In this document: positions 5,248-41,232 of the stretch, one piece after another
Layout of the letters: every line of letters starts with the position of its first letter
Numbering within the stretch: position 1 is the stretch's first letter
NCBI RefSeq assembly: GCF_000515395.1
Contig: NZ_KI911782.1
Coordinates: 248,001-312,000 of the forward strand
DNA: 64,000 bases
Direction: 5' to 3'
Source: Jiangella gansuensis DSM 44835
GTDB lineage: Bacteria; Actinomycetota; Actinomycetes; Jiangellales; Jiangellaceae
The notes under the pieces: generated by a model
What the model was told of the DNA's origin: nothing
Databases searched by the model: none
Seen by the model: only the letters and a program-made list of their open reading frames with translations
Made by a program: the position numbers and the translations under genes

Positions 5248-5324
<77 letters not shown>

Positions 5325-18327: not shown

Positions 18328-19738
18328 TCAGAACGGTGGCGTGTCGTCCGGATCGGGTGGCTGGCCGGCGCGGTCGCTCTGGTCGCCGGCGGTGTCATGG
18401 TGGTCGGCGTCGTGGGGTGGTTTTGCGGTCGGGCTGGTGGGGCCAACTGGTTCGGGTGGTTTCCGGTAGGTGTGTCCGGTGGGGCTGGTCCACACGGTGG
18501 TGCCGTCGGGTTGCTGCTGCACGCGCCAACGGCCGCGGTGTTTGAGCAGGTGATGGGTCCGGCACAGTGGCTGGCAGTTGCAGGCGGTGGTGGGGCCGCC
18601 GGCGGCGTGGGCGACGACGTGGTCGATGTCGCAACGTGTCGCGGGCTGGTGGCAGCCGGGGGTGCGGCAGGTTCGGTCGCGCAGCACGACATGGTCGATT
18701 AACGCCTGGGTGGGCCGGTAGCGGGTGTGGCCGTGGTCGACGTACCGGCCGCTGGCCGGGTCGGTGCCGACCCACTGCCAGATCCCGGCGGCGGCCAGAT
18801 GCCTGCCTATGTGGGCCGGGATGGGGCCGTAGCCGTCCAGGTGCGCGGGCTCGTCGCTGAGCCCGGCCAGTGACCGGAACGCGAACGTCACCTGCACCGC
18901 CACCGCCCGCCCCTGCGCCGACGCGAGCGGAATCGCCACCCGCTCCCCCAACAACCGTCCGGCCCCGCCCGGCGGTGGCGGTCCGGTCGTGCCCGGCGGG
19001 GTGGTCTCGGCGGGCTGCCCGGCTACCGCCTCGGCATCGAGCCCCGGAAGACCGAACCCCACCCCGGCCGTGGCGGGGTGGCAGTTGCAGGGGCAGCCGG
19101 GCCGATGCAGGAACGCGGGCGCGACCGGCTGCGGGACCGGGTTCGGGTTCGGGTTTGGACCGGGGCCGATGTGTTGGGTGTCCAGGGCGGCCCAGGCCAG
19201 CGCCGCGAGCGCGTCCGCGCGACACTGCGCCACCGTACGAACCGGCTGGCGTCCGGCGGCACGGTCACCACGCTTCAGGGTGCCGGCCGCGGCGTCCAGG
19301 ACCGTCTTCACCGCCATCGCGTCCTCCGCCGGCAAGAACGCCTCCAGATACGCCATCGCATCCGCCGCCGCAGTGACGGTGACCTCACGCCGCTGCCTGG
19401 CCTCGCGACACCGCTGCTGCACCGGCACCGGGGCAAGCTCGTGCAGCAACTGCACGATCCGCTGCCGCAGCGCCACCGAGTCCAGCATCGGCGCCACCGG
19501 CAGCACCGCCGCCTCCACCCGCCGCCGCACCTGCTCGTCCTGTCCACCCAGCTCGCCGGTGATCACCCGCGCGCGACGCTCATCAATCACCCCGCCCGCC
19601 AGCGCCTGCTGGGTGGCGGGAAAGTCCTGCACCAATTGCACCGCGTGCCCGACCAGGTTCTCCGCCTGCCGAGTCGTGGACACCGTGCGCGCGGCCACCT
19701 CCACCGCGGTGTTCGTGACCGGATTCACCGACCGGTAC
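18328..19738 (-). pseudogene. DUF222/HNH endonuclease gene, 3' part, split by the prophage
   Basis: This is the C-terminal 470 residues of a 13E12-type protein: most of DUF222 (VEVAARTVSTTRQAENL to about residue 300) followed by an HNH nuclease with RTPGCHQPATRCDIDHVV and NCQPLCRTHHLLKHRG. The missing N-terminus lies 21 kb away at 40814-41232. Joining the halves at the shared 12-bp core gives 1818 nt, a multiple of three (605 residues), with the frame reading ...CGYRSVNPVTN.... In the lysogen an ATG inside phage DNA (19800, or 19782) stays in frame with this part, so a truncated protein with an intact HNH motif could still be made. Confidence 0.92.
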
Positions 19739-20021
19739 TGCGGTTGAGACCTTCCTTCCCGGCGTAGCCGAACATCAGCCATTCGAGATCGACCCCACAT
19801 GCCTCAGCCAGTAGCCGGAGGTCGCGACGCCGCGGGGTCGTGACGCCGTTCACCCAGTTGCCGATGCTCGACTTGCTTACCTCGATGCGTTCGGCCAGCT
19901 CCCGATAGTCGTAGCCAGCGATCCGCATCGCCTTGCGGATGCGGTCAGCCAGATCGAACTCGGGGACGACCGCCGGCGCCTTCTGCGTCGGCCGCGTCTG
20001 CATCTCCGTCATGCGCTCCAT
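19725..20021 (-). CDS. Phage immunity repressor (XRE/Cro-CI HTH), truncated form made in the lysogen
   Basis: This 98-residue protein (95 from ATG 20012) has a helix-turn-helix at about 40-75 (YRELAERIEVSKSSIGNWVNGVTTPRRRDL, split in text for length). The last codons, STGR and TGA, lie in attL; the final two bases of the stop codon are host DNA. In the excised phage the frame continues through the core for 48 more codons and stops at 40668. ATG 20021 sits 7 nt after TAGCTT, fitting a leaderless promoter; ATG 20012 has GGAG only 3 nt upstream. A near-palindrome overlaps this promoter, suggesting self-repression. The gene is divergent from the excisionase-like gene. Confidence 0.9.
   Translation of the reverse strand: MERMTEMQTRPTQKAPAVVPEFDLADRIRKAMRIAGYDYRELAERIEVSKSSIGNWVNGVTTPRRRDLRLLAEACGVDLEWLMFGYAGKEGLNRSTGR
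19727..19738. repeat. attL core (12-bp direct repeat)
   Basis: ACCGACCGGTAC is identical to 40814-40825. Flanking bases differ on both sides, so the exact identity is 12 bp. It encodes the end of YRSV in the host gene and STGR in the repressor, in different frames of the minus strand. Confidence 0.92.
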
Positions 20022-20023
20022 CA

Positions 20024-20039
20024 TGTCCAAGCTAGGACG
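20024..20039. promoter_or_regulatory. Candidate repressor operator O1 over the repressor promoter
   Basis: TGTCCAAG-CTAGGACG is a near-palindrome with half-site TGTCCAAG. It overlaps the TAGCTT -10 element of the repressor gene. The same half-site occurs in O2. Confidence 0.5.
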
Positions 20040-20055
20040 AGTTGGCAACCCTGGC

Positions 20056-20085
20056 TTGACGACGAAACTTGGACATGGCCAAGAT
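20056..20085 (+). promoter_or_regulatory. Early rightward promoter of the prophage
   Basis: TTGACG, 18 bp, CAAGAT, then 6 nt to the ATG of the excisionase-like gene, compatible with a leaderless or very short leader. O2 lies between the two hexamers, so bound repressor would block it. Confidence 0.5.
20068..20083. promoter_or_regulatory. Candidate repressor operator O2 over the early promoter
   Basis: CTTGGACA-TGGCCAAG is palindromic except for one symmetric pair and shares the CTTGGACA/TGTCCAAG half-site with O1. Confidence 0.5.
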
Positions 20086-20091
20086 TGGCCC

Positions 20092-20295
20092 ATGGCAACC
20101 ACGACCCCGGAGCTGATCGACGCCGCCGAAGCGGCCGAGATTCTGCACATGTCCCGCCGGCACGTCAGCCGACTCGCCGCCGCCGGGCACCTGACCCCGG
20201 CCGCCAAGGGCCGCGGCGTCCGCGGGCTGCGGCTGTTCGACCGCGCCGACGTCATCGCGCTCAAGGCGAAGCTCGCCGCGAAGGCCGCCGACTGA
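20092..20295 (+). CDS. Excisionase/MerR-like helix-turn-helix protein
   Basis: This 67-residue protein begins MATTTPELIDAAEAAEILHM and has a winged-helix core SRRHVSRLAAAGHLTPAAKG typical of excisionase-family DNA-binding proteins. Being the first gene opposite the repressor, it could act as a Cro-like switch protein, as directionality factor, or as both. Its stop overlaps the next start (TGATG). Confidence 0.85.
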   Translation: MATTTPELIDAAEAAEILHMSRRHVSRLAAAGHLTPAAKGRGVRGLRLFDRADVIALKAKLAAKAAD

Positions 20296-20956: not shown

Positions 20957-21336
20957 CCGCGGCCACCCTCACCCGCACCGGCCTCGTGTGCCACACCTGC
21001 CACCGGCCCATGCGCCGCCGCGGCACCACCGCCGCCGACCACCCCGGCACCGTCCTCGCCGAGACGAACACCCGGTGCCGCAGCTGCTACGAGCGCTCCC
21101 GCCGGCGCCGCAACGGCATGCCGGACCTGCACGCACGGCGCCGCGCCGTCGTCGAGGACGTCGAATGGCTCACCGACCCCGCCAACTTCGTCGACCGGCC
21201 CGACCGCATCGCCGCCCGCCTCGGCTACGACTCCGTATGGAACCTGCTCATCACCCTCCGCCGCGCCGGCCGCGACGACCTCGCACAGCGGCTACTGGAA
21301 CGCCGCGAGCACATCGGACGCGAGGCCGTCGCATGA
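20953..21336 (+). CDS. Prophage zinc-finger/HTH protein
   Basis: This 127-residue protein has CHTC and CRSC about 30 residues apart, forming a likely zinc site, and a C-terminal helix-turn-helix-like part (RIAARLGYDSVWNLLITLRR). GTG start in a 4-bp overlap. It is possibly an early regulator; no named family. Confidence 0.7.
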   Translation: MTAATLTRTGLVCHTCHRPMRRRGTTAADHPGTVLAETNTRCRSCYERSRRRRNGMPDLHARRRAVVEDVEWLTDPANFVDRPDRIAARLGYDSVWNLLITLRRAGRDDLAQRLLERREHIGREAVA

Positions 21337-22106
21337 GTCTCACCGTCCTGTCGCTGTTCTCCGGGATCGGAGGACTCGAGCTCGGTCTTGAGTGGGCCGG
21401 CATGACCACGGTCGGACAGGTGGAGATCGACCCGTACTGCCAGCGCGTGCTGGCCCGACACTGGCCGGAGGTCCCGCGCCATGACGATGTCCGAACCGCC
21501 CCGGAATGGTGGCTCGGAGCACCCAGGCCAGTTGTCGATGTGGTCGCCGGCGGATACCCGTGCCAGCCGTTCAGCGATGCCGGCCGGCGGCGCGGTGTCG
21601 CTGACGAGCGGTGGGGCTGGCCGTGGTTCGAAGCAGTGGTTCGCGCAGTACGACCCCGATACGTCGTCGTGGAGAACGTCCCAGCTCTCGCTGACGACAC
21701 CGAAGCCTTTGGATGGATGCTCGGTGACCTGGCCGCGCTCGGGTTCGATGCGGAATGGGACGTGCTATCCGCGTGCGCCGTGGGTGCCCCACACACACGT
21801 GAACGGCTGTTCCTGGTGGCCTACGCCGACAGCCTCCATGGGTCGGCGGGGATGGGGGGTGGGCAAGAACAGCAGCTCGCCCGGCTCGCGGGGTGGACAT
21901 CAGCGGGCATCCGTGGCGGTTCTCAGGCGGGTGCATGGGGTGATCGCGTCGACTGGGCGGTGGAGACCGCCGGTCTTGATGATCGAAATGCTAATGGGAC
22001 TACCGCCCGGATGGCTGTCACTGCCGGCGGCAACGCCGTCGTCCCCCAGGTCGCAGAGCTGATCGGACGCCTGATCACGGCCCACGACGAGGAGATGGCC
22101 GCATGA
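21333..22106 (+). CDS. Phage DNA (cytosine-5-) methyltransferase
   Basis: This 257-residue protein carries all main C5-methyltransferase motifs: I LFSGIGGLELGLE, IV GGYPCQPFS with the catalytic Cys, VI VVENV, VIII ERLFLVAYAD and X GNAVVPQ. The target-recognition part between VIII and X is short (about 65 residues). No restriction enzyme is next to it, so it is probably an orphan protecting phage DNA. Start and stop overlap neighbours (ATGA). A second open frame at 21481-22062 also looks family-like (see findings). Confidence 0.95.
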   Translation: MSLTVLSLFSGIGGLELGLEWAGMTTVGQVEIDPYCQRVLARHWPEVPRHDDVRTAPEWWLGAPRPVVDVVAGGYPCQPFSDAGRRRGVADERWGWPWFEAVVRAVRPRYVVVENVPALADDTEAFGWMLGDLAALGFDAEWDVLSACAVGAPHTRERLFLVAYADSLHGSAGMGGGQEQQLARLAGWTSAGIRGGSQAGAWGDRVDWAVETAGLDDRNANGTTARMAVTAGGNAVVPQVAELIGRLITAHDEEMAA

Positions 22107-23767: not shown

Positions 23768-24712
23768 GTGGCGTGGGTCCGCGGTGGAGACACCGCGCTG
23801 ACGCATCCGGTCGTGGTGCGCGGTATGACGGTGGCCGGCGCGGACTCGCGCACGTGGCGCGAGCTGCTGGGCACCGCGCACCTGCTCGCCTCCGTGGCGG
23901 GCGCGCATCTCACCGATGGGGTGATCGAGGCCGGGCACCTGATGATGGTGTGCGGCGCCGACATGCCCACCGTGGCCGCGCAGATGGTGGAGGCCGGCTA
24001 CCTCACCCCCGACGAGATCGACGGCCGGCAGGTGTGGCGGCTGATCAACGACCCCGAGCTGATACACATACGCTCTCGCGCCGAGGTCGAGTGGGACCGC
24101 GCCCGCAAGCGGGACGCGTCGAACGCGGACGTCACCTTGCGCGTGGTCCTCCGCGACGGCTCGGCGTGCCGGTACTGCGGCCGGACCGTGTCGTGGAAAG
24201 ACCGCCGCGGCACCCGCGCCGCCACCTATGACCACCGCATCCCCGGCAAGCCGGCGAAGATTGCGGATGACCTGTTCGTGGCCTGCAAGGGCTGCAACTC
24301 ATCGCGCAAGGACGACCCGACAGGCGCGTGGGACCGAGAGCACCCGCGCCTGCCGGCACCCGACAAGCCCTACTACTGCGACCACGCCCGTGCACGCCTC
24401 GCGGCGGCCGGCATCACCGTCGACCCCGCCAGCGCGCCACCAGAGACCGGCTCAGGCCCCACCGGCACGAACGCACCCGCCACGGCGGGCCGCGGGCACC
24501 GGGACGAGCGGCCAGCGGACCTGGCGGACCTGGATGAGGGTCCGGAAGCCAGCTTCCCCGGGACGGGTCGGGACGGGTCGGGTCAGGCCGTGTCGGGTGC
24601 CGCTGCTCGCCGCAGGGCTCGACGTCGCCGTACCCGAGCACCAGACCGACCCCGCGAGAGGGGGACCAGTGGACCTGGAGGACATCGCACTGACCGAGGC
24701 CATCAGGGGTGA
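23768..24712 (+). CDS. Prophage HNH endonuclease-domain protein
   Basis: This 314-residue protein has a GTG start. Residues 1-110 are helical with no known fold. The HNH module is at about 125-180: CRYCGRTV, then YDHRIPG (the DH pair) and ACKGCNSSRKD. The last 95 residues are low-complexity (Gly/Arg/Pro) and overlap the next gene, so the tail may not matter. It could be a homing or recombination nuclease. It is separate from the terminase-linked HNH gene at 26023. Confidence 0.85.
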   Translation: MAWVRGGDTALTHPVVVRGMTVAGADSRTWRELLGTAHLLASVAGAHLTDGVIEAGHLMMVCGADMPTVAAQMVEAGYLTPDEIDGRQVWRLINDPELIHIRSRAEVEWDRARKRDASNADVTLRVVLRDGSACRYCGRTVSWKDRRGTRAATYDHRIPGKPAKIADDLFVACKGCNSSRKDDPTGAWDREHPRLPAPDKPYYCDHARARLAAAGITVDPASAPPETGSGPTGTNAPATAGRGHRDERPADLADLDEGPEASFPGTGRDGSGQAVSGAAARRRARRRRTRAPDRPRERGTSGPGGHRTDRGHQG

Positions 24713-25003: not shown

Positions 25004-25831
25004 ATGGCCTACCTGGTGAAGAACCCGCCGCGGGTCCGGCAGTTCCGGCCGCGCCGCGCCGGCCTGTGGGGCGTCATCGGCGTGCACACCGCCGAGTCGT
25101 TCCCCGACGAGACCGGCCCGGACACCGGCGCCGAGAACGTGGCCCGGTTCATCCGTGACCGCACGACCCCAGGCTGCTACCACCGCCTCAGCGACAGCGA
25201 CTCCCGGATCGAGCTGGTGCCGTTCGAGCTGGCCACGTTCCACATCGGCACGCACGGCCTGAACGACCGCACCATCGGCATCTCCGCCGCGACGCAGGCC
25301 GCGAAGTGGCGCAGCCTCGACCCCGACTACGTCACGGCCATGGTGCAGAACATGGCCCGCGACGCCGCCGACGCCGCCCGCTGGCTCAAAACCGAGCACG
25401 GGATCACGGTGCCGGCCCGCCGGATCACGCTCGCCCAGGCACTCAACGGCCAGCACGGGTTCCTGGCTCACGGCGACGCCGACCCCGGCCGGCGCACCGA
25501 CCCCGGGGAGCACTTCCCCTGGCCGCTGTTCCTGTCCACCTACGCCGCGCTCATGCGTGGCGACACCACCACCGACGACGAATGGAGCGAAATGGCCAGC
25601 CGCGAAGAGGTCGAACAGGCCTCGTACGAAGGGACGATGCGGGCGCTCGCCGACGCCGCCGCCGGCAACGGGCTCACCGTCCTGCACGAACGCCTACAGG
25701 CCGAGGTCGAACAGGGGGTGGCGCGCCAGTTCGTCATCCTGATCGACGAGGCCGCCAACCGCAGCACCGCCCGAGGTCGAGCCCTGTCCAACGACCTGTG
25801 GGCCATCACCCGCGGGGAGCGTGGCGAATGA
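25004..25831 (+). CDS. Endolysin: N-acetylmuramoyl-L-alanine amidase
   Basis: This 275-residue protein has an amidase_2 (PGRP-like) domain over residues 15-175. The zinc ligands are expected in GVHTAE, FHIGTH and HGDADPGRRTDPGEHFPW. A helical C-terminal part (about 185-275) replaces a classical wall-binding repeat. It cuts the bond between muramic acid and the stem peptide at lysis. AGAGAGGA precedes the ATG. It overlaps the holin gene by 4 bp; together they are the lysis cassette, placed ahead of the terminase. Confidence 0.92.
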   Translation: MAYLVKNPPRVRQFRPRRAGLWGVIGVHTAESFPDETGPDTGAENVARFIRDRTTPGCYHRLSDSDSRIELVPFELATFHIGTHGLNDRTIGISAATQAAKWRSLDPDYVTAMVQNMARDAADAARWLKTEHGITVPARRITLAQALNGQHGFLAHGDADPGRRTDPGEHFPWPLFLSTYAALMRGDTTTDDEWSEMASREEVEQASYEGTMRALADAAAGNGLTVLHERLQAEVEQGVARQFVILIDEAANRSTARGRALSNDLWAITRGERGE

Positions 25832-26920: not shown

Positions 26921-28450
26921 ATGAGGCACGATTGCGCCGAGTGCGGCCGTGACTTCGAGGGCCGATCTGACGCCCTGTATTGCACGACCTCTTGCCGCTC
27001 GCGGGCCAGTAGGAAACGCCGTCAGAGCCGTGCAAAGGCGTTCCCACCTGCGGATATGCGGAAGGGTCGGCCGAGTTCGCCCCGAATGGAGGCCGGAGCG
27101 AAGCTGCTCGGCGTCGAGCTGCATGATCACCAGCTTGAGCTGGGCGAGCTGCTGGACGCCGGCCACGAGACGACGGCGATTCAGTGGCCGCGGCGGGCGG
27201 GCAAGACCACGAGCATATGGGCGTGGCTGCTCGGCAGGTGTGCGACCGAGGATGACACGCTGATTCTGACGACGGCGCAGTCCGGGTTCAAGGCTCGCGA
27301 CCGGTTCATGTCGATCATGCGGATGTTGGACCGGGCGAAGGCGCCCGGGCGCCCACGGGTGTATCAGGGCGCCGGGCACGAGGCGTTCGAGTTCGCGAAC
27401 CACTCGCGGTTGTGGGTGGTCGCGCCGAAGGCTGACACCGCGCTCGGTGACGCCGCGAACGTGATCTACGTGGACGAGGCGCAGGCGCTCGCCCCGGACG
27501 CGTCGCTGGACTTCGAGCAGGCCGCGATGCCGCTGCTGGACACCGTCGAGGATGGCCAGGTGGTGCTGTCCGGCACGCCGGGGAAGGTCCGGGCGGGCTG
27601 GTACTGGAACGCGCTACAGACCGGGCTGGGCGAGCGGACCGGCGTCGTCGTCGGCAGCTACGCACCCGGGCACGCGGTGTCGGTGTACGCCGCGCAGCCG
27701 GGCGACAAGTGGGACGACGAGCGGGTGTGGCGTCGAATACACCCCGGCATCGGGCGGCTTACCACCATCGAGAAGATCCGTGCCCGGCACACGAAGTTCG
27801 CCAAGGAGCCGCTGCGGTTCGCGATGGAGTACCTGGGCGTGTGGCCGGGCACCGACCAGCGCCGCGCCATCGACGCCGACGAGTGGGCCGCCGCCGGCGA
27901 CGACTTCGCCGAGAAGCCGGACAGGTTCGGCCTCGCCTACGACGTGGACCCGCTGGGCGTCCAGGCGTCACTGGTGGCCGCCTGGCGCGACGATGACGGC
28001 CTGGCGCACATCGAGTTGCTGATGCACGGCGAGCCCCGCCAGATCGGCAAGGAGGCGCTACGCGTGGCCCGGGAACACCGGGTGCCCATCGGGTACGACA
28101 ACCTCGGGCAGAACCTCGACGTAGCCGAAGGGCTGAACCGAGCCAAGCCGAAGCCGAAGATGATGCCGCTCGCGCTGCGAGACATCGTCGCCGCCCAGTC
28201 CGGGCTGATGGCTGAACTGCGGATCACCGAGAAGCACCCCGCCGTGACGCTGCAACACCCGGACCAGCCCGTCCTGAACGCCGCGGTCGAGTCGGCCGCG
28301 TGGCGCACGGTCGGCGACTCCGGGCAGCTGTTCGGCCGGCGCGTGTCGACCGGCGACATCACAGCCATCGTCGCGGCGGCGAACGCGCTGCTCGTGTTCG
28401 ACCGGATGCCGAAGCGAACGTCCATTCGGATCGTGACGCGGGCGAGCTGA
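26921..28450 (+). CDS. Terminase large subunit with N-terminal zinc ribbon
   Basis: This 509-residue protein is the packaging motor and nuclease. The first 30 residues form a zinc ribbon (CAECGRDF...YCTTSC) not usual for this family. The ATPase has Walker A WPRRAGKTTS near residue 88 and Walker B VIYVDEAQ near 183. The nuclease half uses acidic residues such as AYDVDPLG near 343. No small terminase gene is visible; the zinc ribbon may supply DNA recognition (inference). The ATG follows 73 bp of non-coding sequence. Confidence 0.95.
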   Translation: MRHDCAECGRDFEGRSDALYCTTSCRSRASRKRRQSRAKAFPPADMRKGRPSSPRMEAGAKLLGVELHDHQLELGELLDAGHETTAIQWPRRAGKTTSIWAWLLGRCATEDDTLILTTAQSGFKARDRFMSIMRMLDRAKAPGRPRVYQGAGHEAFEFANHSRLWVVAPKADTALGDAANVIYVDEAQALAPDASLDFEQAAMPLLDTVEDGQVVLSGTPGKVRAGWYWNALQTGLGERTGVVVGSYAPGHAVSVYAAQPGDKWDDERVWRRIHPGIGRLTTIEKIRARHTKFAKEPLRFAMEYLGVWPGTDQRRAIDADEWAAAGDDFAEKPDRFGLAYDVDPLGVQASLVAAWRDDDGLAHIELLMHGEPRQIGKEALRVAREHRVPIGYDNLGQNLDVAEGLNRAKPKPKMMPLALRDIVAAQSGLMAELRITEKHPAVTLQHPDQPVLNAAVESAAWRTVGDSGQLFGRRVSTGDITAIVAAANALLVFDRMPKRTSIRIVTRAS

Positions 28451-28469
28451 TCCACGTATGCAGAGATGT

Positions 28470-28491
28470 CAAATGCTCTCTATAGCATTTG
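28470..28491 (+). other. Perfect 8-bp hairpin between terminase and portal genes
   Basis: CAAATGCT, loop CTCTAT, AGCATTTG. It is strikingly AT-rich for the region and ends 4 nt before the portal GTG. No T run follows, so it is not an ordinary terminator. It could be a processing site, a protein-binding operator or a translation control element. Confidence 0.5.
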
Positions 28492-28495
28492 CCTC

Positions 28496-29542
28496 GTGGG
28501 TGTCATCAGCGCGTGGCGGGACATGCTCTCGCGGCCGAAGCCGGGCTTGCCGTTGGCGTCGCCGTGGTCGACGTCCACACTTCAGACCGCGGTACTGGCG
28601 GACATCTTCGGCAAGGAGAACTTGCCCGTCACCCGCGAGATGTGCATGTCCATCCCGGCGGTGTCCAAGGCTCGGGCGCTCGTCGCCGGGAAGCTGGCTC
28701 GCCAGCCCCTTAAGGCATACCGCGGTGATGCCGAACTGCCGGCCCGGTCGCAGCCGTCGTGGCTGTATCGGACCAACGGCGACGTGCCGCCGCAGATGCG
28801 GATGCTGTGGACCATCGATGACCTGTTCTTCGGTGGGTGGTCGCTGTGGGGTGTGGAGCGCGGCACGGCCCGCGACGACCAGCGATACGGCCCGATCCTC
28901 GACGCCTACCGGGTGCCGTACGAGTGGTGGGAGTTCGACCCGGACGGGAAGATTCTCGTCAATGGAGGCGAGGTCACCGAGGACTCGGTGATCCTGTTTG
29001 CCGGCCCGTTCGAGGGCCTGATCGAGGCGGCGGCCGACACGATCCGCGGCGCCCGGAACCTTGAGCGGGCGTGGGCGAAGCGGGTCAACAACCCGATCCC
29101 CGCGACCGAGCTGCACCAGACTACCGACGACGTCATGGAAGACGAAGAGATCGACGAGCTCGTCGACACCTGGATCGGCATGCTGAATAAGGGCGGCGGC
29201 GTCGCCTACACGCCGCCGTCCATCGACGTGCGAACGCACGGTGAGACTGTGCTCGACCTGTTCATCGAGGGCCGCAACGCTGTCACGCTCGATGTCGGGC
29301 GGCACACCAACGTCGGCGCGCAGATGCTCGACGCATCCATGGCGACCAGCTCATTGCAATACGTGACCGCGGTCGACGGCCGCAACTCGTTCATCGACGA
29401 CACCCTCGACTACTGGGCGATGCCCATCGAGGCGCGCCTGTCGATGGACGACGTCGTACCCCGCGGACAGCGGATCGCGTTCGACCTGTCCCACCTCACC
29501 CGGCTCCCACAACCGTCGACCGGACCAGCAACGGAGGACTGA
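28496..29542 (+). CDS. Phage portal protein (HK97 family)
   Basis: This is about 348 residues from the GTG at 28496; an ATG at 28466 is in frame but lies upstream of the hairpin. It matches HK97-type portals: LARQPLKAYRGD, a central LFAGPFEGLIEAAADTIRG, and a C-terminal YWAMPIEARLSMDDVVPRG. It forms the ring through which DNA enters the capsid. It directly follows the terminase, in the standard order. Confidence 0.88.
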   Translation: MGVISAWRDMLSRPKPGLPLASPWSTSTLQTAVLADIFGKENLPVTREMCMSIPAVSKARALVAGKLARQPLKAYRGDAELPARSQPSWLYRTNGDVPPQMRMLWTIDDLFFGGWSLWGVERGTARDDQRYGPILDAYRVPYEWWEFDPDGKILVNGGEVTEDSVILFAGPFEGLIEAAADTIRGARNLERAWAKRVNNPIPATELHQTTDDVMEDEEIDELVDTWIGMLNKGGGVAYTPPSIDVRTHGETVLDLFIEGRNAVTLDVGRHTNVGAQMLDASMATSSLQYVTAVDGRNSFIDDTLDYWAMPIEARLSMDDVVPRGQRIAFDLSHLTRLPQPSTGPATED

Positions 29543-29789: not shown

Positions 29790-31454
29790 ATGGCGAAGAC
29801 CACCGCGTTGCAGGCGCTCGGCACGCTGCTGGAGGCGTCCGCCGATGACCGCACGCTGACCTACCGGCTTCTGCCGTACGGCGAGCAGGGCCGCACCAAC
29901 CTCGGGCGCGTGACAGCTGGCCCGGGTGTCGTGCGCATCCCGGGTGACCCGTCCGAGCTGGTGGCCAACCTGGAGCACGACCGCAAGCGGCCGGTCGCCC
30001 GGGCCACCTCGATCACCGAGGATGACGGCGGCCTGACTGCCACGTTCCGTATCGCCGCGACGACGGCCGGTAACGACTTGCTCGCCGAGGCGGCCGAGGG
30101 TCTGCGCACAGGCATCTCCGTTGAGCTGTCCGACCCGGTCATCCGCAACGGCAAGCTGCTGTCCGCCGAGCTGGCCGGCGCCGGGTTCGTCGCCTCTCCG
30201 GCGTTCCCGTCCGCACAGCTGGTCGCGGCCGACGCCGGCGAGCTGCCCGACGAGATCGCGCCGGACTCGCAGTCGCACAGCGTCAGTGAGGACGTCATCG
30301 AGGTGGACGGAAAGAAGTACCGCCGCATCACCGAGTCCAGCTACGAGACTCGCACCGAGCCCGTCGCGGGCAACGACGACGACCCGCCGGACGGCGGGGA
30401 CGAAGACACCGAGGACGACGCGTCCGAGGAAGACCAGGAGGACCAGCAGATGACCGCTTCCACCGCCAAGAAGGCAGCGTCCGCGCCGGCGACGCTCCGC
30501 GGCGCCGCTGCCAAGGGCGGCGGCCGCGGTACCACGCTGCTCGCCGCCGACGCCGGCCCCCGCGACCTGTTCCGACTGTTGGCCGAGGCCGGCAAGACGC
30601 AGGACAGTGAGCTGATCGCCGAGCTCGTCGACATCACGCAGTCCGGCGCCATCGGCAACACTGAGGTGCCCCAGTATGTCGGCGAGCTGTGGGATGGCCG
30701 CGCAGCCGAGCGGCGCATCATCCCGCTGTTCAACCACGCCGACCTCACCAGCTACAAGGTGCACGGCTGGCGCTGGGTGAACAAGCCGCAGGTCGCGCCG
30801 TACGCCGGCGACAAGGCCGACGTTCCGAGCAACGCCGTGTCCACCGAGCAGGTGACGATCTCAGCCGAGCGGATCGCCGGCGCCCACGACATCGACCGCA
30901 AGTACCGAGACTTCGGGGATGAGGCGTTCTGGCAGTCGTACCTGGCGGCCATGACCGAGTCCTACGCCGTCCAGTCCGACGCCGCCGTTCTGGCCGACGC
31001 GCTCGCGGCGGCCACTGCGGTCACCGTAGGTGATCCGGTGACCGGTGTACCCGCGGTCTGGATCAAGATCGTGGACGGCGTCCTGTCTGTGTTGCAGGCC
31101 ACCAACGCGATGCCCAGCTTTTCGGTACTGGCGTTCGACCTCTACCGTGACTTCCTGCTGACGCCGCAGGACGGCGGCCTGGAGTACCTGAACGCCGCGC
31201 TCGGGTTCGAGCGGGGCACCGTCAACCAGGGCAACTTCTCGGTGCTGCCGCATGCGGCCATCCCTGACGGCGGAGCACTGACGGGAGCCCGCGAGGCGGT
31301 CACCGTGCACGAGCTGGGCGGCGGCACCCCGATCCGAGTCGAAGCCGAGAACGTCGGCAAGGGCGGCATCGACGCCGGCGTGTTCGGCTACTACGCCGTC
31401 AACATTCACGACACCGGCGGCCTGGCGCTCGTCAACGACCCGATCACCCCCTGA
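29790..31454 (+). CDS. Prohead protease-major capsid protein fusion
   Basis: This is a 554-residue fusion. Residues 15-150 are an HK97-type prohead protease with the His in NLEHDRKRPV and the Ser in GISVELSDP. Residues 175-225 are an acidic linker (NDDDPPDGGDEDTEDD). From about 230 on comes an HK97-fold capsid protein (NTEVPQYVGELWDGRAAERR, KVHGWRWVNKPQV). An in-frame ATG at about 30450 could give capsid protein alone. The linker probably replaces a scaffold delta domain and is removed by the protease at maturation. Confidence 0.92.
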   Translation: MAKTTALQALGTLLEASADDRTLTYRLLPYGEQGRTNLGRVTAGPGVVRIPGDPSELVANLEHDRKRPVARATSITEDDGGLTATFRIAATTAGNDLLAEAAEGLRTGISVELSDPVIRNGKLLSAELAGAGFVASPAFPSAQLVAADAGELPDEIAPDSQSHSVSEDVIEVDGKKYRRITESSYETRTEPVAGNDDDPPDGGDEDTEDDASEEDQEDQQMTASTAKKAASAPATLRGAAAKGGGRGTTLLAADAGPRDLFRLLAEAGKTQDSELIAELVDITQSGAIGNTEVPQYVGELWDGRAAERRIIPLFNHADLTSYKVHGWRWVNKPQVAPYAGDKADVPSNAVSTEQVTISAERIAGAHDIDRKYRDFGDEAFWQSYLAAMTESYAVQSDAAVLADALAAATAVTVGDPVTGVPAVWIKIVDGVLSVLQATNAMPSFSVLAFDLYRDFLLTPQDGGLEYLNAALGFERGTVNQGNFSVLPHAAIPDGGALTGAREAVTVHELGGGTPIRVEAENVGKGGIDAGVFGYYAVNIHDTGGLALVNDPITP

Positions 31455-32199: not shown

Positions 32200-32787
32200 A
32201 TGGCACAGATTGCCGTCAAGCCGTTCGTGCTCAAGGACGTTCTCCTGGGCATCGAGGTCGACAACTACGAGGCGCACGTGTCGGCGGTGACGTTCACGCC
32301 GGCCAACTCCGCGCAGGAGTGGCGCGGCCTGACCCCGTCCGCGGTGTTCACCGACCCGGGGTCGGAGACGTGGACGGTCACGCTGGAGATCGCGCAGGAC
32401 TGGGAGACCCCGGATTCGCTGGCCCGGTACCTGTTCGAGAACGCCGGCCAGACGCGGGCGGTCACGTTCAAGCCGCAGTCCGGGTCCGGTCCCACGTTCG
32501 AGGCGAACGTCACGCTCGTGTCGCCGGCCATCGGCGGCACCGGCAACTCGTACGCGACGGCGTCCGTGGCGTGCGGCGTGCAGGGCCGCCCGACTCTGGT
32601 CGACCCGTCGCCGGCGCCTGACGCCTGGACCGCGGAGACCGCCTACGAGGTGGGCGACCGGGTCAGCATCGGCGCCGCGGTTCTGCGTGCGCTGACGGAC
32701 GGCACGTCCGCCGCCGCCGAACCGACCGCGCCCGGCCGCAGCAACGTCGTCGTCGACGGCACCGTGGCCTGGCTCCAGACCGCCTGA
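32200..32787 (+). CDS. Major tail tube protein with C-terminal carbohydrate-binding-like domain
   Basis: This 195-residue protein's first 130 residues are a tail-tube beta-barrel (FTPANSAQEWRGLTP, ETWTVTLEIAQDW). The last 50 (AWTAETAYEVGDRVSI...EPTAPG) resemble CBM5/12-type modules often fixed to phage tail tubes. Such a module would decorate the tail surface. Confidence 0.85.
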   Translation: MAQIAVKPFVLKDVLLGIEVDNYEAHVSAVTFTPANSAQEWRGLTPSAVFTDPGSETWTVTLEIAQDWETPDSLARYLFENAGQTRAVTFKPQSGSGPTFEANVTLVSPAIGGTGNSYATASVACGVQGRPTLVDPSPAPDAWTAETAYEVGDRVSIGAAVLRALTDGTSAAAEPTAPGRSNVVVDGTVAWLQTA

Positions 32788-39687: not shown

Positions 39688-40671
39688 TCAGATGGCGTCG
39701 ACGACAGCGGTCAGTTCGTCGTCGTCGACGAGGGTGTAGATCTGTGTGGTGGCTACCGACGCGTGCCCGAGCAGCCGTTGCACGGCGCGCAGGTTGCCGC
39801 TGGTGCGCAGCGCCCGGGTGGCGAAGCGGTGCCGCAGGGTGTGGCCCTTCATGCCAATGGCTCGCTTGGCGATGTCGCCGACGAATCCGGGCGAGACGTG
39901 CCCGCTGGTGCGGCCGGGGAACACCCATTCGAGCAGGTCGTCTTTGCGTGCTCCGCCGTAGCGCCACCCGGTGCCGGTGGCGCCGGCCTGCCGCCGCTCG
40001 TATTCGTCGGCCAGGGCCAGCGCCCACCGCCGCTTCACCGGCAGCACGCGGGTCTTGCCGCCCTTGCCGTGCAGCCGGATTCGGACCGGGATGGTCCGCA
40101 TCGTGCCGTCGTCGAGGATCACCTGCGACCACGTCATGTCGTCCCACCGCTGCCGGGCTGTCTCCGCTGCCCGGGCGCCGCCTTCCGCACCCGACAGCAG
40201 CACGAGCGCGGTCTTGTGGTCGGCGGCGGCTAGCGCGTCCTCGAACACCGGTTCGGGGGTGGGGGTGGGGACGCCGCGGGGCACGCTGGGCGTTTTCAGC
40301 CCGATGGTGGGGTCGCTCTTGCACCGCTTCGTCTCGACCATCCACCGGTAGAACCCGCGGAGCGCGGCGATCTCGGACTTGAGGGATTCGGCCGACCACT
40401 TCCAGGATGCGAGCCAGCTCACGATGTCGTCGCGGCTGACCTTGCCGGGCATGCGGTGCAGGTGGTACTCGCAGAACCGCCTGATCTGGTAGCGACGCTT
40501 CCGGATCGTGGTCTCCGGCTTGAAACCGGCGGCAGCCAGGGCTCGCGAGTAGGCGTTGATGCAGTCCGCCCAGGCGTCGATCCGTCTCCGGGCGTGCAAC
40601 TCGGTGGTCTCCCCGCTGGTACGTACATCGTGGCAAGGGTGATCTTCAGCCACGTCGCTACGCAAAGTCAC
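39688..40671 (-). CDS. int: Tyrosine-recombinase integrase
   Basis: This 327-residue protein has an N-terminal SAM-like core-binding domain (about 35-125) and a catalytic domain with the full set R167, K206, H277-x2-R280, H303 and nucleophile Y312 (HTLRHRFATR, LGHASVATTQIY). GTG start at 40671; its first bases overlap the stop codon of the phage-form repressor frame (GTGA). In the lysogen it is cut off from the repressor promoter and lies downstream of the host DUF222/HNH promoter in the same direction. It catalyses recombination between the 12-bp cores. Confidence 0.96.
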   Translation of the reverse strand: MTLRSDVAEDHPCHDVRTSGETTELHARRRIDAWADCINAYSRALAAAGFKPETTIRKRRYQIRRFCEYHLHRMPGKVSRDDIVSWLASWKWSAESLKSEIAALRGFYRWMVETKRCKSDPTIGLKTPSVPRGVPTPTPEPVFEDALAAADHKTALVLLSGAEGGARAAETARQRWDDMTWSQVILDDGTMRTIPVRIRLHGKGGKTRVLPVKRRWALALADEYERRQAGATGTGWRYGGARKDDLLEWVFPGRTSGHVSPGFVGDIAKRAIGMKGHTLRHRFATRALRTSGNLRAVQRLLGHASVATTQIYTLVDDDELTAVVDAI

Positions 40672-40813
40672 GACCCGCTCACTCTCTGTGACCGGATTGC
40701 AATGTTTGCCCCGGCGTGTCGGGAGGGTACGAGTTGCCGGATTGTGGCAATGGGCGAGCGGAGCGCCAGGACTTCGTGCGTGCTGACCTCAGCGGGAGCG
40801 GCTGAGTCGAAAT
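40668..40813 (-). other. Detached C-terminal extension of the phage-form repressor
   Basis: In circular phage DNA this stretch continues the repressor frame from ...STGR into YFDSAAPAEVSTHE... for 48 codons and ends in TGA overlapping the integrase GTG. The joined frame is 441 nt from ATG 20021, a multiple of three, without internal stop. In the lysogen it is silent as a repressor part. It does not end in an obvious ssrA-like LAA. Confidence 0.85.
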
Positions 40814-40825
40814 ACCGACCGGTAC
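40814..40825. repeat. attR core (12-bp direct repeat)
   Basis: ACCGACCGGTAC is identical to attL. On the minus strand it is the YRSV codons of the split host gene. Confidence 0.92.
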
Positions 40826-41232
40826 CCACACCGTTCGGGTTGCAGTTCCGGGCGGGTGGTGAGCTCGGCCACCGCGGCGGCCTGCTGCGCGGCAACCCAG
40901 GCAGCGAGCCGGGCCCATCCCGCGACCGCCTCCACCACCCCATACGTCGACACCGCCGTCACGTCCGTGTCGGCCAGCGCCCGCGCCAGCCCCGGCCCCG
41001 TCGGTGTCTCCTCGACCGGGACTTCCCCGCCCGCGTGGTCGTCGAGCAGGGCGGTCAACTCGTCGTCGAGGAGGCCGTCCGGCAGCACATCCAGGCCGAC
41101 GTCGGCGTCGGCGGGCAGCTCGCCCGGGTCGAAGCTCACCCATGCCCCGGTCCGCGGGTCGCGGGCCACCAGACCCGCCGCCGCGGGATCGACACCCCGC
41201 AACACACCACTCAGACCACCTTTTCCGAACAT
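40814..41232 (-). pseudogene. DUF222/HNH endonuclease gene, 5' part, split by the prophage
   Basis: This is the N-terminal 139 residues starting MFGKGGLSGVLRGVDPAAAG, then a helical DUF222 start (VEAVAGWARLAAWVAAQQAAAVAEL). After the core the frame enters phage DNA and stops at 40789. The start at 41232 is supported by TAGGGT exactly 7 nt upstream, a leaderless arrangement; longer upstream frames lack support. It is continued by 18328-19738. Confidence 0.9.

Follow-up and report, generated by a model that had tools for sequence, protein, structure and literature searches.

The 64 kb stretch of DNA analysed here (the window) carries what we take, with a probability of roughly 75%, to be a siphovirus-like temperate prophage whose immunity switch depends on integration. 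By its anatomy and by the kinship of its integrase, repressor and divergent gene the system is, as judged from sequence, one of integration-dependent immunity: the attachment site lies within the phage's own repressor gene and integration therefore removes the tail of the repressor. New here is the use of the interior of a protein gene as the target, the same core being present in three intact paralogues. Counted in favour of the switch were the exact prophage ends, a GTGA overlap between repressor and integrase, a second prophage of the same plan in the genus (genome G002), a related cassette in known phages, the structural genes and the placement of an inverted repeat. Counted against it were the lack of degradation tags, a repressor tail that could be open by chance, the fact that the GTGA overlap is not a rule, flat GC3 in the tail, the lack of enrichment of the inverted-repeat sequence, the lack of a close relative for judging tail conservation and the dissimilarity of the G002 tail. 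With this switch, integration-dependent immunity would reach into a small actinobacterial order, two of whose prophages use different short non-tRNA sites.

Prophage ends and gene content

The 12 bp core ACCGACCGGTAC occurs in the window as an exact repeat at 19727–19738 (attL) and 40814–40825 (attR). As stand-alone proof of an attachment site this repeat was rejected as weak: with up to one mismatch ACCGACCGGTAC gave three matches in the window against 0.70 expected, three were reached in 6 of 100 shuffles, and nine exact copies are present in the 5.6 Mb genome. The two cores were paired as att sites because the outer flanks, when joined at the core, rebuild an intact host gene. On the minus strand the joined flanks read as one continuous DUF222/HNH frame, which aligned with a paralogue (L191) at 80% identity over 647 columns and was unbroken across the junction motif GYRSVNPV. 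The original prediction had placed the attL core at 19727–19738 and attB within a DUF222/HNH coding gene; the exact repeat, secured by the rebuilt gene, upholds the first claim, and the open frame with its identity to the paralogue through the junction upholds the second.

The 3' part of the severed host gene lies at 18328–19726 (minus strand) and was recognized by profile matches on the ORF 18328–19800 (DUF222, 3.2e-23; HNH, 0.002, the latter below the Pfam cut-off). The 5' part (40826–41232, minus strand) was delimited from the alignment of the rebuilt gene, its start at 41232 being uncertain. At attL, the frame of the 3' part begins with a prophage-internal ATG at 19800 (18328–19800); since it is open from this codon, the lysogen could make a 490-residue fusion with a short phage-encoded start, and this putative fusion overlaps the end of the repressor in another frame. 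At the opposite end the lysogen carries the integrase downstream of the cut 5' part on the same strand (40671–41232), and because the two are co-directional a host promoter may drive the integrase.

Genes with family matches include those for an endolysin (amidase) at 25004–25831 (Amidase_2, 1.2e-07; phrog_12609, 9.6e-24), the terminase large subunit at 26921–28450 (phrog_9, 2e-26), the portal protein at 28466–29542 (Phage_portal, 1.3e-12), the major head protein at 29790–31454 (phrog_2263, 6e-60) and the major tail protein at 32200–32787 (phrog_4574, 4.8e-15), all on the plus strand. A tyrosine integrase of 327 residues with a GTG start is encoded on the minus strand at 39688–40671 (Phage_integrase, 4.6e-17), its start being backed by the identical VTLR that the G002 homologue has in this position. 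The two cores are only 21.1 kb apart, as might be expected if the prophage were decaying and integration had broken its repressor. This reading is very unlikely, since the genes for terminase, portal, capsid, tail, endolysin, integrase and the excisionase-like protein have open frames and family matches and the helix–turn–helix (HTH) domain of the repressor is complete. An HNH endonuclease-like protein is encoded at 23768–24712 (phrog_15463, 2.5e-51), ahead of the endolysin.

Target sites in DUF222 genes

The attB site is not at a tRNA gene; the sole tRNA gene of the 64 kb window lies at 5248–5324. The genome gave 15 matches to the DUF222 profile, which correspond to 13 genes because two genes match twice each, and the 12 bp core was found in four of these genes, one of them cut and three intact. 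The core belongs to the stretch of DUF222 genes that encodes the motif Gly-Tyr-Arg-Ser-Val-Asn-Pro, and it is followed by GTGAAYCC. A pattern comprising the core and its surroundings, GTACCGGTCGGTGAAYCC, occurred 15 times in five of the 12 genus genomes (0 for the reversed control); the loci encode the DUF222 motif, and 14 of the 15 sites are intact by the longer pattern. No other prophage was found at the DUF222 core among these 15 sites in five of 12 genomes, only the present one being occupied; G002 carries one GTACCGGTCGGTGAAYCC site, yet its prophage occupies another locus. At each GTACCGGTCGGTGAAYCC site an identical TGA would be completed by the sequence that follows the core. Integration in any of the four core-bearing genes, or in any of 11 in four sister species, would thus yield the same short repressor, since GTGAAYCC completes the stop. 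With a target gene in multiple copies, it can be tested directly how many attB sites there are and whether they are equivalent.

Short and long forms of the repressor

The lysogenic repressor is encoded on the minus strand at 19725–20012 (95 residues from ATG 20012; HTH_3, 8.7e-13; phrog_2328 repressor, 3.2e-19) and ends in a TGA at 19727–19725, minus strand, composed of one core base and two host bases. Joining of the prophage ends placed the attP core in the repressor reading frame, about two thirds along the gene, and the frame read on for 48 codons beyond the core. The severed 3' end (40668–40814, minus strand) consists of these 48 codons and a stop at 40670–40668, which overlaps the GTG start of the integrase at 40671 as GTGA, a feature absent from the original prediction. 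Repressor and integrase are hence adjacent on the same strand in the phage form. Counted from ATG 20024, 20021 or 20012, the repressor has 99, 98 or 95 residues in the lysogen versus 147, 146 or 143 in the attP form; after integration the protein is shorter at its C-terminus, ending at the early attL stop, and retains the whole HTH domain. The split TGA and the 48-codon read-through that had been predicted were both read from the joined ends, and the predicted lengths (98/146 and 95/143 residues) are correct for the second and third ATG, the first (20024) giving 99/147.

The proposed switch starts from the free phage, in which, as the joined ends indicate, repressor and integrase would be co-oriented neighbours and the repressor would extend 48 codons past the core. 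On integration the core comes to lie in the DUF222/HNH gene, where the host GA after the core completes the TGA, so that the lysogen makes a repressor of 95–99 residues with a whole HTH domain. Lack of activity or a short lifetime would mark the long form, whereas the short form would bind the CATGTCCAAG inverted repeat between the repressor and the excisionase-like gene and so maintain lysogeny. Excision, the operators, the promoters, the start codon and the stability of both repressor forms are parts of this scheme that we infer.

The open 48-codon tail was considered as evidence of coding and discarded as weak: in a first-order model trained on the stop-free tail segment, 48 codons stayed open in 0.57 of 20 000 draws, and another frame of the same segment is open for 51 codons. 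GC3 is 0.68 in the tail versus 0.84 in the repressor body, the tails of related phages being equally flat. With the integrase as query, the viral contigs gave no closer relative in which conservation of the tail could be followed. If the long repressor too conferred immunity and were not rapidly degraded, a tail open by chance would be as expected, and so would the lack of a degradation tag on both the long repressor and the integrase. Such an outcome is nevertheless improbable, because the GTGA overlap with the integrase ends the tail in two diverged prophages, both have their stop at the first codon past the core, and tagless systems have been published, although a degradation signal is presumed there too.

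A search of viral contigs with the repressor returned two loci. In one (L238, 6001–6300) a 92-residue repressor, 48% identical to that of the prophage and ending in GLAA, precedes an integrase match of 30% identity by ∼1.6 kb.

Candidate control region

A perfect 10 bp inverted repeat, CATGTCCAAG/CTTGGACATG, lies between the repressor and the divergent gene. Its arms, at 20022–20031 (plus strand; CATGTCCAAG) and 20068–20077 (minus strand), are operator candidates. The first arm shares bases with the −10-like hexamer of the putative repressor promoter; the second is located between TTGACG (20056–20061) and a weak −10 (20080–20085) of the rightward gene, a promoter assigned by eye and absent from the output of the promoter scan. 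The promoter-like site TTGCCA-17-CATGAT at 20020–20048 (minus strand), a consensus match only, was found once against a shuffle mean of 0.0 and would have the repressor message begin at about ATG 20012, with hardly any leader. Exact copies of CATGTCCAAG numbered eight in the 5.6 Mb genome (two of them these arms) versus nine of the reversed control; with up to one mismatch, five were found in the window versus 2.10 expected.

The divergent gene (20092–20295, plus strand) encodes an excisionase/Cro-like (MerR-like) HTH protein of 67 residues (phrog_66, 6.3e-07), which is 39–45% identical to the products of the divergent genes of SallySpecial, Berka, Barebow and Phayonce. In BPs the two operators are located, respectively, between −10 and −35 of PR and downstream of Prep (PMC4557955); the inverted-repeat arms agree with the first of these places and only roughly with the second. 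Near the immunity region, a C5 cytosine DNA methylase is encoded at 20988–22106 (5e-38).

A second prophage in the genus

At a threshold of 1e-20 the integrase had matches in four of 12 genus genomes, two of them 36–37% identical; at 1e-45 only one further genome was matched among 393 drawn from the class. The homologues in G002 are 48% (integrase) and 42% (repressor) identical to those of the present prophage, and the G002 prophage runs from its repressor at 1715191 to its integrase at 1749979–1750914. Its ends share the 10 bp core ACGACTCGGT at 1714903 and 1751174. Because four 11 bp matches exceeded ACGACTCGGT in the first scan, this core was checked against empty sites. The joined G002 flanks were matched end to end by seven sister genomes and partly by others, and an empty site with the exact core in uninterrupted sequence was present at nine loci in nine of the 11 other genus genomes; exact ACGACTCGGT was not found in the matching stretch of J. 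gansuensis (L212) or of G004 (L254).

The G002 repressor has 96 residues in the lysogen versus 161 in the phage form. Its lysogenic stop is a TAA finished by host bases, its long form ends as GTGA at the integrase, and repressor and integrase likewise have no ssrA-like tags. The tail has no similarity to the present tail that is visible by eye. In contrast to the present prophage, the G002 core is of 10 bp and lies at an intergenic site upstream of an MshA-like gene (named by eye). ACGACTCGGT upstream of this gene (G002:C1; L202–L211) is exact in nine sister genomes; since the surroundings vary, it may have a host function.

Comparison with known systems

In BPs-type phages, attP lies in the repressor gene, repressor and integrase form one operon, a host base completes the stop, and the repressor of the BPs lysogen is shorter by 33 residues (PMC4557955, PMC9262239). 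The original prediction had described the present layout as integration-dependent immunity as in these phages, and the related cassette and the second genus prophage of the same plan bear this out. The BPs-type target is a tRNA gene with a 35 bp core, whereas here it is a DUF222 gene with a 12 bp core. Proteolysis of the long form is reported for BPs.

The integrase of Angel is 37.8% identical to that of the prophage, and Bakery is also among the integrase relatives. The repressors of Phayonce (Cluster P) and of the small phages SallySpecial, Barebow and Berka are 38–44% identical over the matched part; they end in VA, AA, AS and TI, in contrast to SGS here. In the stretch of Berka that was examined an integrase annotation is absent. 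The repressor frames of Phayonce, SallySpecial and Barebow contain what we take, partly by eye, to be a tRNA-like motif. A 4 bp overlap of repressor and integrase is annotated in Angel, Bakery and Hibiscus; in the other four of the seven phages with adjacent repressor and integrase (Phayonce, Barebow, SallySpecial and JustASigh) there is none, so the GTGA overlap is not a family rule.

Also comparable are systems of Mycobacterium abscessus, for which one paper (PMC8092301) describes integration-dependent immunity without ssrA-like tags in MabC, MabN, MabO and MabH, other degradation signals being presumed; a missing tag therefore does not exclude membership. According to the same paper, the first host base at attL makes the stop in MabC, MabK, MabN and MabO, and some of six sites (attB-8, -12, -13 and -14) are non-tRNA, with cores of 3–25 bp (PMC8092301). 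It had been predicted that the known cases use other targets; this holds for the BPs-type phages with their tRNA genes, but the M. abscessus prophages provide published non-tRNA sites with short cores. The M. abscessus non-tRNA sites described there lie between genes, at the start of a gene or seven codons away from the end of one, in contrast to the present site, which splits a gene internally; for serine integrases, gene-interior disruption is reported (PMC8092301). A tyrosine-integrase site of Bifidobacterium lies at the 3' end of dnaJ2, with the gene restored (PMC6109161), and a 2022 review states that every phage with integration-dependent immunity has a tRNA attB (PMC9262239). An interior, unrestored gene was not found as a target in the literature passages on integration-dependent systems, and a literature search on the genus name plus 'prophage' returned no publication.

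Integrase clade and the missing ssrA-like tag

The long repressor ends in QRVSGS and the integrase in AVVDAI, both without an ssrA-like end, so that the difference in stability proposed in the original prediction finds no backing in the sequence. An integrase tree was computed with a quick method, without inference of the root, from 82 distinct sequences, the last 12 residues being left out; the 82 remained from 91 rows after removal of eight identical to others and filtering of L150. An AA ending is present in 50 of the 82. The present integrase grouped with those of G002, L104, L119 and L130 (SH-aLRT 95, unrooted), and none of these five ends in AA, all ending in I or L. The -AA label requires 16 changes on the tree, so absence of -AA also came about or was retained outside this group, for example in Angel. 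Among the 80 viral loci of the matches listed, 27 repressor-like ORFs lie upstream of the integrase (near-copies were kept; L160 was left out because its match overlaps the integrase frame). Within this set 21 end in AA and eight share 4 bp with a potential integrase start, near-copies of one phage accounting for five of the eight.

A whole integrase branch without an ssrA-like end offers a natural test of tail requirements, and if the switch works in this branch another route for silencing the long repressor must exist. As a version of the main reading rather than an exclusive alternative, the switch could operate without an ssrA-type tag, either through another protease signal or because the 48 extra residues block oligomerization. 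We regard this version as plausible, though at somewhat less than even odds: all five integrases of the clade are tagless and its long repressors end in SGS (present prophage), TKP (G002) and ASQ (L130), but in BPs the two repressor forms do not differ in DNA binding, and it is degradation that inactivates the long one (PMC4557955). More doubtful still is the fuller proposal of a tagless switch branch whose stop is supplied by a conserved coding motif of the host, shared by several paralogues, and whose long form is silenced by a non-ssrA signal.

Two members of the clade were rejected as having the same layout. In L104 a different ORF overlaps the integrase and a repressor match is absent from the record; in L119 the repressor is ∼1 kb away from the integrase. 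A search of genome contigs found integrases of 25–36% identity across many phyla among the best 80 matches. The metagenomic phage L130 (2477–4014), of the same integrase clade, has a 4 bp overlap of repressor and integrase with no AA end, and its core contains, by eye, a tRNA-like motif.
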